Below, piece by piece: positions 44,904 to 63,434 of a stretch of DNA of 64,000 bases. Made by a program: the position numbers and the translations under genes. The stretch is taken from the NCBI GenBank assembly GCA_002748755.1, contig PDTD01000017.1, positions 36,747-100,746 on the forward strand, read 5' to 3'. The first letter of the stretch is position 1; each line of letters starts with the position of its first letter. The notes under the pieces were generated by a model. The model was not told the DNA's origin, made no database searches, and was given only the letters and a program-made list of their open reading frames with translations. This DNA comes from Desulfobulbus propionicus. GTDB taxonomy: Bacteria > Desulfobacterota > Desulfobulbia > Desulfobulbales > Desulfobulbaceae.

Positions 44904-46190
44904 TTACATGGCGTGACGTTTTCTGAACTCTTTGATATCACGATCCCAACCGCCAGGCACTTCCTCTTCTTTCCAGAAGACATAGGGATTGGAACGCGGT
45001 TCTTTCACATGTTGTGGCAAAGGTTCTATTTCCATAACCCTTAAGAAAGTTGGCAAACCGATACGCTGCATGGTCTCTCCAACGCGCTCACGGTTTTTAC
45101 CGACTTCCATCCACCAATCCCATACTTTTTCGATGACATCAATCACTTCTTCAAAATCGTTCTCTTTGCTCACCTTAATAAAAGGAATAACCAACGTCGA
45201 GAATTGAGCGCCATCAAGAATCGGAGCCTTGGCACCAATCAGGATGGAAGCACCTGTATCAAGACCTGGGCGTAAAGCGCGAGGCATGACATTGATACAG
45301 TGCATACAACGGGTACACTCGCTATCATCAATTTTCAGTTCATCACCTTCCATCCACATGCACTGGGTCGGGCAGAGATCAAGTACTTCTTCCTTGATAT
45401 CAAACGGTCCCCAGTCACCGCCTCGGTGAGAACCTGCATTGGACGGGTATTCAGGGTTGTTGGCGATGTACTCTTTGACAGCTGCCTGATCAATGCGGAT
45501 ATTGTCTTTCCAGGTTCCAATAACAGAAAAGTCGGAACGGGCTATAGCTGCAACACAGTCATTGGGGCATGAGGAGAATTTAAATTTGAACTTGTACGGA
45601 AATGCTGGGCGATGAATCTCGTCCTGGTAATGCTGGGTCAGGTGATTGCAGATCTCCTGAGCGTCAAAGCAAGACCATTCACAGCGAGAGGAACCAAGAC
45701 AGCAGGCCGGTGTCCGCAGGTTAGACCCTGAACCACCAAGATCCTGGCCAAGGTCATGGGTCAGATCCCAGAACAGAGGCTCAAGATTCTCGGTCCGAGT
45801 TCCCAGAAAGATCATATCCCCGGTTGAGCCATGCATATTGGTGACACCAGAACCGTATTTCTCCCACAGATCCATGAGGGCCCTGAGATTCTCTGTGGTG
45901 TAGTAGAGCCCTGATGGCTGGGCGACGCGTACGGTATGAAAATGTTCCACTCCTGGAAATCGGTCAGGAACGTCGGAGTAACGACCGACGATACCACCCC
46001 CGTACCCGAAAACACCTACGATGCCACCATGTTTCCAATGGGTGATCCTGTCTTCGTATGAAAGCTCAAGCTGCCCAAGGATGTCCCACACCTCAGGCTT
46101 GGTTTCAGCCTGTCGCTTGAGGTCAGTGACGAAACTCGGCCATGGACCTTTTTCCAGTTCGTCCAATAGAGGCGTTTCATGCTTTGCCAT
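44904..46190 (-). CDS. dsrA: Dissimilatory sulfite reductase alpha subunit
   Basis: 428 residues. Cluster-binding cysteines lie in T-P-A-C-C-L-G-S-S-R-C-E-W-S-C near residues 170-184 and a ferredoxin domain with C-T-R-C-M-H-C near 285. Reductive-type organisation with dsrB and dsrD downstream. dsrC, dsrMKJOP and sat/apr are not in this window. A consensus promoter lies 127 bases upstream. Confidence 0.97.
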   Translation of the reverse strand: MAKHETPLLDELEKGPWPSFVTDLKRQAETKPEVWDILGQLELSYEDRITHWKHGGIVGVFGYGGGIVGRYSDVPDRFPGVEHFHTVRVAQPSGLYYTTENLRALMDLWEKYGSGVTNMHGSTGDMIFLGTRTENLEPLFWDLTHDLGQDLGGSGSNLRTPACCLGSSRCEWSCFDAQEICNHLTQHYQDEIHRPAFPYKFKFKFSSCPNDCVAAIARSDFSVIGTWKDNIRIDQAAVKEYIANNPEYPSNAGSHRGGDWGPFDIKEEVLDLCPTQCMWMEGDELKIDDSECTRCMHCINVMPRALRPGLDTGASILIGAKAPILDGAQFSTLVIPFIKVSKENDFEEVIDVIEKVWDWWMEVGKNRERVGETMQRIGLPTFLRVMEIEPLPQHVKEPRSNPYVFWKEEEVPGGWDRDIKEFRKRHAM

Positions 46191-61289: not shown

Positions 61290-61541
61290 CTAAGATGCCG
61301 GAAGGTTCGTGCCTCCCGGTTTCCCAATGGTAAGGACTACTCCGTAGGTACGCTCCTCTCTCATGATAATCTCTCCACCTGCATGGGCGACCACCTTGTT
61401 CATGCCGTCTGCCATAAGCGGCACACAAAGAAAGGTAAACTGTTGGCCCGGAGACATGTTTCCTAGACGTGCCCGCACGTCTTTGTAGCCCCATCAACAG
61501 TCTTTACGGTAATCAATATCTATTCGGTTGCGTTTTCTCAT
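61290..61541 (-). CDS. Candidate selenoprotein: TusA/SirA-like with in-frame TGA (Sec16)
   Basis: AAGGAG lies seven bases before the ATG at 61541. The frame runs 15 codons, ending K-D-C, meets TGA at 61496-61494, and continues in the same frame through 67 codons to TAG. The joined 83-residue product has the TusA pattern: I-D-I-D strand, Cys 15 at the position of the catalytic Cys of C-P-x-P, then M-S-P-G-Q and a final L-T-I-G-K-P. TusA proteins are ~80 residues and relay persulfide sulfur. If TGA is read as Sec, it forms a Cys-Sec pair. A hairpin at the right distance supports recoding. Otherwise it is a nonsense-mutated pseudogene. Confidence 0.75.
61465..61482 (-). promoter_or_regulatory. 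Candidate bacterial SECIS hairpin
   Basis: On the minus strand AGACGTG-CGGG-CACGTCT is a perfect seven-base-pair stem with a four-base loop. The loop starts 19 bases after the TGA, within the spacing of known bacterial SECIS elements, and has G in its second position. It lies within the coding sequence, as expected. Confidence 0.65.
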
Positions 61542-61586
61542 ACTCAGTCTCCTTGTCAGTAAGGAAAGTGTTCTCTTGGGGATGGT

Positions 61587-62198: not shown

Positions 62199-63434
62199 TC
62201 AAGGTCTCCAAGTTGGCTTTTTGCAGGTGTCCTGATAGAATGGTTTACCGAAGGCATCACGCTGTGAACTAAAGTAGTGTACCGTGGGCGGCATATAGGC
62301 ATCATGATCGGGAAAGAGATTGCCAAACAGCGTGCGGCATGGCTCCAGAAAATCCTTACGCTGCAGAGTCGGGAAATACTTTTGAGCGCAGGCAATCACA
62401 GGGTCGAAAAAATGGTGCCCCATGAACATATCATATGTGATACTGAGAAATGCGCCCGTTTCCATACGATTATACATATTCAGGTTCTCTTCGGGCAAGC
62501 CCTGGTCACGGCGTCTGCGCATATCGATGCCGACACTGAGGTCCCGGTGCACTACGCGTTGTATATCACCTTGGACATTGACTTCAAGCAGAACATTCTG
62601 TCCGTGGGGCTCAAGCATATAGCCCAGCAAAAGGTAGCAGTGCACCCAATGACGAATAATGGGAAACATCAGCTGTTCAAGTAGATATTCCAGGGGATGG
62701 CGGGAGGCTATCAGCTCAATGAGCAGAGGAGGGGTGTTCGGGGCGAAATAATTGGCGCCGTGGAGGGCAAACCCGGGTATAAGGTAGCGCCTTTCCGTAC
62801 TTTGGGGAAACGGGGTCATTTCACGGACCAGGTAGCCCCAATGCTCACCTCTGAGCATTTCTTGCTTTGGAACAATCTGCTGCTGTTTTATAGACAGTCC
62901 CAACACTTCACGCAAAAAGGCAAAATTTTCATCCAGGGCGGCAATGTGATGCTCCAATTCCAGGGAGACATTGATGGCCTGTTCAATAACCTCGTCCCGC
63001 ATTTTCCTGCTATATCTGGACACTTTGAATGGAAAGTGCACTTTAAGCGCGTGCGCTGGAAGCTCTTTGCTGTCCACATACAGGGTTCGGGTGGAGGAAC
63101 TGGGGATAACAGGTATAGGGGGGAGAGGAGAGGCTGCCTGCAGCACCGTCTGCAAAAACGGGTCGTGGTCAACACTCTGAAGAACCTGGGGATGGATGCA
63201 GAAAATGGCCTGATTCCCAGGCAGGTACTGCTGTTCCAGTTTGGGGTGTGGACCTGCAGTATAGATGTTGACCATGTCGCGGCGCAGGGAAAATGGAGTG
63301 AGCTTGAACCACGGCGTTTCAGCGTTGGGTCGATACTGCTCCAGAGCTTCTGTATACCCGGCTTGGTCAGAATAGTTTCTTGTCCCTTCGTTGTGGTAAC
63401 GGTCCAGGTAAATAAGAGACGGGTACATGGTCAC
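62199..63434 (-). CDS. IucA/IucC-like (NIS siderophore synthetase) family protein, short form
   Basis: 411 residues. The C-terminal half has E-P-H-G-Q-N-V-L-L near residue 276 and R-V-V-H-R-D-L-S-V-G-I-D near 292, the IucA/IucC pattern around the active site, and the middle has L-K-V-H-F-P-F-K-V-S. NIS synthetases (~600 residues) join citrate or similar acids to amines using ATP. The N-terminal third with the H-P-x-H-P motif is not seen, so it is short or divergent. No other siderophore genes adjoin. Confidence 0.6.
   Translation of the reverse strand: MTMYPSLIYLDRYHNEGTRNYSDQAGYTEALEQYRPNAETPWFKLTPFSLRRDMVNIYTAGPHPKLEQQYLPGNQAIFCIHPQVLQSVDHDPFLQTVLQAASPLPPIPVIPSSSTRTLYVDSKELPAHALKVHFPFKVSRYSRKMRDEVIEQAINVSLELEHHIAALDENFAFLREVLGLSIKQQQIVPKQEMLRGEHWGYLVREMTPFPQSTERRYLIPGFALHGANYFAPNTPPLLIELIASRHPLEYLLEQLMFPIIRHWVHCYLLLGYMLEPHGQNVLLEVNVQGDIQRVVHRDLSVGIDMRRRRDQGLPEENLNMYNRMETGAFLSITYDMFMGHHFFDPVIACAQKYFPTLQRKDFLEPCRTLFGNLFPDHDAYMPPTVHYFSSQRDAFGKPFYQDTCKKPTWRP

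Follow-up and report, generated by a model that had tools for sequence, protein, structure and literature searches.

Can a short reading frame that is interrupted by an in-frame TGA directly behind a cysteine codon be the gene of a selenoprotein, and if so, what might such a protein do? The question is raised by positions 61290..61541 (minus strand) of a 64,000-nucleotide stretch of Desulfobulbus propionicus DNA, the whole of which we call the window. A Shine-Dalgarno sequence, AAGGAG (61549..61554, minus strand), lies 7 nt before an ATG at 61541-61539, which opens 15 codons ending in Cys (TGT). The TGA (61494..61496, minus strand) stands directly 3' of the Cys15 codon, and 67 further codons lead to a TAG at 61292-61290. 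The frame is open once the TGA is read as selenocysteine (Sec), and then encodes 83 residues with Sec at position 16, in a subfamily that starts MRKRxRIDIDYRxDCU. Behind the TGA lies a SECIS-like hairpin (61465..61482, minus strand), whose 7-bp stem joins 61482-61476 to 61471-61465 in seven Watson-Crick pairs with no mismatch and encloses the loop CGGG (61472-61475); the first loop base is the 19th base after the TGA. An earlier first-pass annotation, made from the letters alone, had described these elements and had noted that standard gene calling would miss or truncate the gene, since the frame would be cut at the TGA; all of this holds, as does its placing of Sec after the Cys, for which both the sequence and the family speak. 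Its main proposal, a new selenoprotein, agrees with the conserved TGA, the SECIS-like hairpin and the presence of selA, selC and selD in the genome. As the best explanation of the whole, the locus very probably encodes a small Sec-containing protein, because the UGA at codon 16 is conserved, the hairpin stands right behind it and the genomes carry Sec machinery.

Relatives of the gene are numerous, and nearly all carry the TGA. A search with the 83-residue protein gave 26 matches in 21 of 37 related genomes (its own included), every one of them with an in-frame TGA at the same site. The profile made from these 26 rows (A1) has invariant positions at the start Met, Asp10, Arg12, the Sec site, Asp21, Arg25, Leu26 and Gly56. 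In the order, A1 found 78 matches in 64 of 193 genomes, 71 of them with TGA; the other seven have Leu (TTA in three, CTG in one), TAA (one), or start behind the site (two). Across the phylum, a profile of 57 rows (A2) reached 35 of 395 genomes, with TGA in all 32 strong matches, four of which had already been seen (the weak matches in G292, G283 and G525, E 1.9e-4 to 9.6e-4, were left out). A profile of 42 rows spanning all subfamilies (A4) was run on two further classes. It gave 33 matches in 32 of 85 genomes in the class of G515: 32 carry the TGA, one of them truncated and the other 31 full-length, and the last, free of stops, is a TusA. In the class of G529 it gave 24 matches in 24 of 46 genomes, all with TGA.

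The first-pass annotation had named the residue of homologues at this site as a check. Over the five genome searches (relatives, order, phylum and the two classes), 146 distinct matches span the site, 141 of them with TGA, four with Leu and one with TAA. This tally goes by place, with repeats entered once (78 less 2 from the order, 4 more from the relatives, 28 from the phylum, 24 from the class of G515 and 14 from the class of G529), and includes the TAA copy (L049) and a truncated one (G611). None of the 146 has Cys at the Sec site, so the Cys homologue by which a bacterial selenoprotein is usually accepted is missing among them; a Cys close to this position is seen only in the distant TusA. 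All profiles carry Cys at the site, and a Cys form would therefore have scored higher, not lower. A regular expression that allows any residue at the site, run over all fetched DNA (named contigs included), found 144 full-length contexts: Cys-TGA in 137, Thr-TGA in one, Ala-TGA in one, Leu in four and TAA in one. The expression demands a family-like frame, and copies such as L260, L188, L306 and L307 escaped it. On re-reading the 29 remaining copies, some of which had been read before, TGA followed Cys in all 29. Elsewhere in the family, a frameshift or truncation affects L060, L063, L068 and L313. The predicted vicinal Cys-Sec pair is thus kept by the family.

Across 84,980 genomes, one for each species, a DNA pattern for D-Y-R-x-[DN]-C-TGA-x4-D-[VI]-[RS] hit 78 stretches. 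Every one of these is a family gene; four (L118, L128, L136 and L139) are cut by an early stop or by the end of the stretch. These stretches were chosen by their TGA and many are genomes of the relatives and order searches, so they give no independent count of TGA. A narrower Cys-Cys motif gave eight matches in the same 84,980 genomes, none a relative. The titles of the pattern matches bear Desulfobacterota-type names or unspecific ones (Deltaproteobacteria, Proteobacteria, Pseudomonadota, 'Bacterium BMS3Bbin14'). Among the carriers are Desulfogranum japonicum DSM 18378, D. marinum DSM 2058, D. mediterraneum DSM 13871, Desulfacinum hydrothermale DSM 13146, Desulforhabdus sp. TSK, Desulfocapsa MAGs and the cable bacteria Candidatus Electrothrix; the cultured hosts (Desulfogranum species) make the family experimentally testable. 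As far as searched, the family appears confined to Desulfobacterota-type bacteria, the genome searches having stayed within the phylum and the pattern covering DYR-type members while being blind to IDSR-type ones. The latter are found in the class of G529 (e.g., L187-L193, L296-L309), whose members form a divergent subfamily, mostly IDSRxxCU...GVGLRFR, with TGA and hairpin kept.

Two other accounts of the frame were considered and rejected. A frame downstream of the TGA that is free of selection does not fit the comparison of the window with L009, in which 18 codons differ at 13 third, four first and one second positions; the third-position bias is weak in some other pairs (L012, L045). A mobile or viral origin was dropped as well, as viral_contigs gave no match to the TGA pattern and no relative to a Cys-coded query, and plasmids gave none either.

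The case for the hairpin comes from the family. For the window alone, the folding energy of the 48-nt stretch does not stand out from that of synonymous recodings (z = -0.19), so the significance of the hairpin has to come from its relatives; an Rfam scan of the window gave nothing at gathering scores. Counting the TGA as nt 1-3, nt 15-21 pair with nt 26-32, the same position across the family, and all seven pairs are present in 101 of 112 distinct TGA rows, six in 10 and five in one (L065). In 200 synonymous-codon randomisations, rows with all seven pairs made up 2.7% on average and 6.25% at most, and the mean number of pairs was 4.50 (SD 0.095, maximum 4.72) against 6.89 observed. Pairing so far above the synonymous controls indicates that the stem is not forced by the protein sequence alone. 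Folding energy gives a weaker signal than pairing: 90% of 115 rows fall under the mean of their synonymous recodings, 56% by over one SD; three of the 115 TGA rows are truncated, have no energy and distort the mean z, and the pairing count was therefore made on 112. In bacterial SECIS elements a G stands among the first two loop bases; here it is the second base in every one of the 112 TGA rows. Of the re-read copies, 28 could be scored, all Cys-Sec, with seven pairs in 23, six in four and five in one.

Covariation is in keeping with a selected stem. In an alignment of 111 rows (A5, L065 left out), 98.7% of 777 cells are paired and both sides have changed at four of the seven pairs. Cells with both sides changed number 62, against 18.7 in shuffles, none of 500 of which was as high; two of the five covariation measures are modest, as many pairs being reached in 10 of 500 shuffles and as many pair types in 29 of 500. 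Sliding the partner by 1-3 columns lowers the pairing to 22-61%, and RNAalifold predicts the same seven pairs.

Copies that lack the TGA are instructive in this respect. The first-pass annotation had held that homologues with a sense codon other than Cys or TGA at the site would speak against a selenoprotein, and copies without either do exist, four with Leu and one with TAA. However, L059, L061, L062, L064 and L065 (family f4, genus g29), in which Cys-Sec has become Thr/Ile-Leu or, once, Thr-TGA, form one clade nested among the Sec members of f4 (support 100/99 and 100/100, on few tree columns), and their hairpin has decayed. The Leu copies keep three, five, three and three of the seven pairs and the Thr-TGA copy (L065) five; the TAA copy keeps all seven. 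Because the Leu clade is nested and has lost the hairpin, it does not refute the selenoprotein; it represents an evolutionary loss of Sec by a non-Cys route. That Cys, Sec and hairpin were lost together makes the Leu copies a natural control for the SECIS element and for the Cys-Sec pair, and hints at joint action of the two residues. Apart from this clade, L049 (G189:C24) has TAA at the Sec site behind which the hairpin is intact, and in L042/L230 (G098:C14) a TAA stands eleven codons behind that of Sec; either may reflect recent decay or a sequence error.

What kind of protein is this? The first-pass annotation had called it TusA/SirA-like, and the broad profile does reach TusA; the window protein by itself has no Pfam match (E up to 1) and no NCBIfam match (E up to 10), and the narrow profiles are weak. 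When members were scanned singly (E up to 10), Pfam TusA was reached by 4 of 26 (best E 0.029) and by 6 of 42 (best 3.5e-4), and the unrelated BRCT_2 was also reached by 6 of 42 (best 0.0038), just as often, so that single matches are not decisive. Profile A1 had no match among PDB chains. In hhalign comparisons with a profile of 29 TusA sequences from relatives, A1 reached a probability of 15%, A2 of 4.5% and A4 of 70.9% (score 28.1, the 53 aligned columns lying beyond the Cys-Sec site; 33% when aligned globally). For comparison, 200 column-shuffled TusA profiles averaged 10.5 and reached at most 21.3, a reversed profile scored 11.5, and TusA against TusA gave 98.9%. Two subsets of TusA scored 18.8 and 21.7 with A4, no better than the best shuffle, and a two-row subset of A3, which we take by its pattern to be YedF N-domains, scored 10.4, no match. 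Searching genomes with A4 also picked up an ordinary TusA, that of G593, at E 1.3e-4 per genome (7e-8 by hmmsearch among 30 sequences); the alignment spans positions 5-70 of the 71 in the profile and puts Cys on Cys.

These comparisons leave room for a real selenoprotein unrelated to TusA, with a small fold of its own whose likeness to TusA would go no further than length and a DxR...C...PG pattern. Such a fold would account for the lack of a Pfam or NCBIfam match of the window protein, for the equal reach of TusA and BRCT_2 (6 of 42 each) and for the low values of the narrow profiles (4.5-15%) and of the TusA subsets. It is unlikely, though, given that the broad profile beats all 200 column shuffles and the reversed control, and that the family profile finds the G593 TusA over nearly its full length. 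A link of the family to the TusA superfamily is, with good confidence, the preferred reading, and the profile comparisons make it a probable distant member of the TusA/SirA superfamily, in which the Cys would occupy the catalytic position and Sec, where helix 1 begins, would replace the Pro that comes next.

The register of this alignment deserves comment. Counting from the Asp of DxR, Sec itself would stand in register with the catalytic Cys of TusA, and one gap separates that reading from the one in which the preceding Cys does. The former was rejected, as full-length hhalign and hmmsearch alignments both place the Cys there; the CP motif that opens helix 1 in TusA is matched in its Cys, its Pro falls on Sec, and one residue is missing before the Cys. 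With TusA/SirA (PF01206; NF001423) the family thus shares length, profile similarity, the position of the Cys and an MxPG-type turn after helix 1, whereas the window protein has no Pfam-level match, Sec for Pro and one residue fewer before the Cys. In the two-domain YedF and FdhU proteins (TusA-DsrE) a TusA-type domain is tied to selenium genes (PMC5322559, PMC2432076), as is probably so here, but the family has a single domain, with Sec for the Pro after Cys. The first-pass annotation had mentioned reports of Sec-containing TusA/SirA-like proteins; these did not turn up, and two papers that use the term 'SirA-like' deal with Cys-containing YedF/SirA-like proteins in selenium metabolism. Two ordinary TusA-type genes are present in the genome of the window, and coexistence with them indicates that the family gene is an addition, not a replacement.

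Neighbouring genes connect the family to selenium in some lineages. The 61 regions fetched gave 58 neighbourhoods (three had no regular-expression match), and when their 875 ORFs, of which 31 encode annotated proteins, were clustered, no cluster recurred in more than six loci; a single conserved operon partner was therefore discarded. In G018 the family gene (L015/L233) is directly preceded, on its own strand, by selB (377 bits). Of 30 loci in the class of G515, 26 have a co-oriented LysR regulator gene upstream, whose end lies 22-342 nt ahead of the DYR codons (a 31st locus, G615, starts too near the contig end and was left out). Of these 26 genes, 24 are near full-length and two are fragments (G612, G596); the gene is absent from three loci, and one locus is too short. 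Two of the LysR proteins were scored against LysR_Sec_metab (NF040786) and passed with 259 and 270 bits (cut-off 250), and the rest were assigned by similarity to these two. The link became complete only with tblastn, an antisense ORF having masked the LysR gene in two loci. The annotated neighbours in the order of the window are diverse (ppk, creA, NapH-like, Sui1, Na/Pi transporter), so the selenium link rests on other lineages. Two minor features of the neighbourhoods may be recorded. A metallo-beta-lactamase-like gene stands beside selB or the LysR_Sec regulator in L233, L266, L267, L271, L282 and others, that of L233 being hydroxyacylglutathione-hydrolase-like, below cut-off. In the class of G529, a gene of cluster c14 adjoins in five neighbourhoods, and the one that is annotated is a dihydrouridine synthase.

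A role as a chalcogen handler in selenium metabolism is the function we would put forward, with a probability somewhat short of even. The selenium-sulfur relay of the first-pass annotation is plausible in this sense, and the sulfite reducer it had supposed as host is borne out by dsrA (dissimilatory sulfite reductase alpha) at window positions 44904-46190 (minus strand; 585 bits), which marks a sulfite/sulfate reducer. In this scheme, a donor such as the persulfide of a cysteine desulfurase or selenocysteine lyase would load sulfane sulfur or selenium onto the Sec selenolate. The neighbouring Cys would then resolve the Sec-bound chalcogen by forming a Cys-Sec bond, and HSe- or HS- would be released or passed on, for example towards SelD. 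The protein being made only when Sec is available, its level would follow the selenium status of the cell. The rise of TusA and TusD transcripts upon selenium depletion in Methanococcus maripaludis fits such a selenium role (PMC11097638).

Other functions can be given to the same protein. The Cys-Sec pair could be a site for binding or detoxifying soft metals (e.g., Hg or Cu) instead of a chalcogen relay, as a CU motif is also found in predicted selenoproteins such as SaoL, SaoC, HgcA and MbdU (PMC13188914, Table 1). This seems improbable, since none of the 31 annotated neighbours (of 875 ORFs) is a known metal-resistance protein, and selenium genes recur near the family in one class and one other genome. 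The protein might alternatively sense selenium status together with the LysR_Sec regulator, the full-length form arising only with selenium and signalling to the regulator. The closeness of the LysR gene, just upstream on the same strand at 26 of the 30 loci in one class, would suit that role, and the way in which the LysR-type HrsM perceives selenium is described as unknown (PMC11097638). Against it, no LysR_Sec-type gene was found in the fetched stretches from the order of the window or the class of G529, and the protein itself carries a conserved pair that looks like an active site, which leaves a pure sensor with little probability. Chalcogen handling remains the reading we prefer.

Does the host have the means of inserting Sec? 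The first-pass annotation had proposed a search for the sel genes, with the absence of selB or selC counting against a selenoprotein, and three of the four are there. The assembly of the window (2.0 Mb in 44 contigs, estimated 90.66% complete) holds selC (tRNA-Sec, 74.4 bits), SelA (599 bits) and SelD (G000:C31:122022-122963, L163; 357 bits), all over cut-off, the last with an in-frame TGA of its own. No selB over cut-off was found in the 2.0 Mb, the best match being EF-Tu-like (186 bits, cut-off 242), although the genus mates G001, G003, G004 and G006 have one over cut-off (three of these are listed as 100% complete, at 4.8-5.8 Mb). Missing sequence would be the simplest account of this gap. 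SelB is over cut-off in 165 of the 193 genomes of the order (58 of 64 with the family, 107 of 129 others), and at 85% of the order anyway, its co-occurrence with the family is weak evidence. That the TGA is an ordinary stop, ending a 15-residue peptide before a dead or unrelated frame, is highly improbable: the TAA in one relative (L049) and the unseen selB would agree with it, but the protein is conserved behind the TGA over about 59-67 codons across the phylum, with mostly third-position-biased divergence, and the hairpin is conserved and lost in the Leu copies.

Selenoproteins are normally recognised through their Cys counterparts, and selenoprotein finders lean on Cys-containing homologues; the family is unusual in having no close one. 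Selenoproteins without Cys homologues are regarded as absent or very rare in a 2007 screen (PMC1914089) and in the deep-Sep paper (PMC12013277). On present data the family stands as an exception at the level of orthologues; counting the distant TusA as a Cys homologue weakens it. An inventory of 119 prokaryotic selenoprotein families or subfamilies, the latest to be found, includes CU motifs in SaoC, SaoL, HgcA, MbdU and KCU-star (PMC13188914). These share with the family a Cys directly before Sec, but have other domains, and the 119-entry table has none with a TusA domain; no TusA/SirA-named family is among its entries, and 'SirA', 'TusA' and 'YedF' are absent from the text (PMC13188914). DsrE-like and rhodanese-like selenoproteins also combine sulfurtransferase-type domains with Sec, in the motifs UxxC, UxxS, UxxG, CxU or UxxxxU (PMC13188914); no DsrE or rhodanese model was among the matches of the family scans. 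NCBIfam 20.0 (June 2026), against which 26 and 42 members were scanned, offered no convincing model, TusA being reached by one member at E 0.1. No published TusA-like selenoprotein was found in the openly searchable literature; an unnamed annotation may exist, for instance in subscription papers, supplements or GenBank. A bolder proposal, less likely than not, is that of an obligate selenoprotein family, with Sec and no Cys orthologue, nearly always beside a Cys. If true, a Sec-only family would work inside selenium metabolism itself, in delivery to SelD or in reporting of selenium status to LysR_Sec.

In the window, the gene seems solitary. The nearest ORFs are a weak HAD-type one, below cut-off, and a FhuF/IucA-like protein. 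The latter, at 62199-63434 (minus strand), is FhuF/IucA-IucC-like with 34 and 30 bits, both above the Pfam cut-offs, and may be a siderophore-type gene in an anaerobe.
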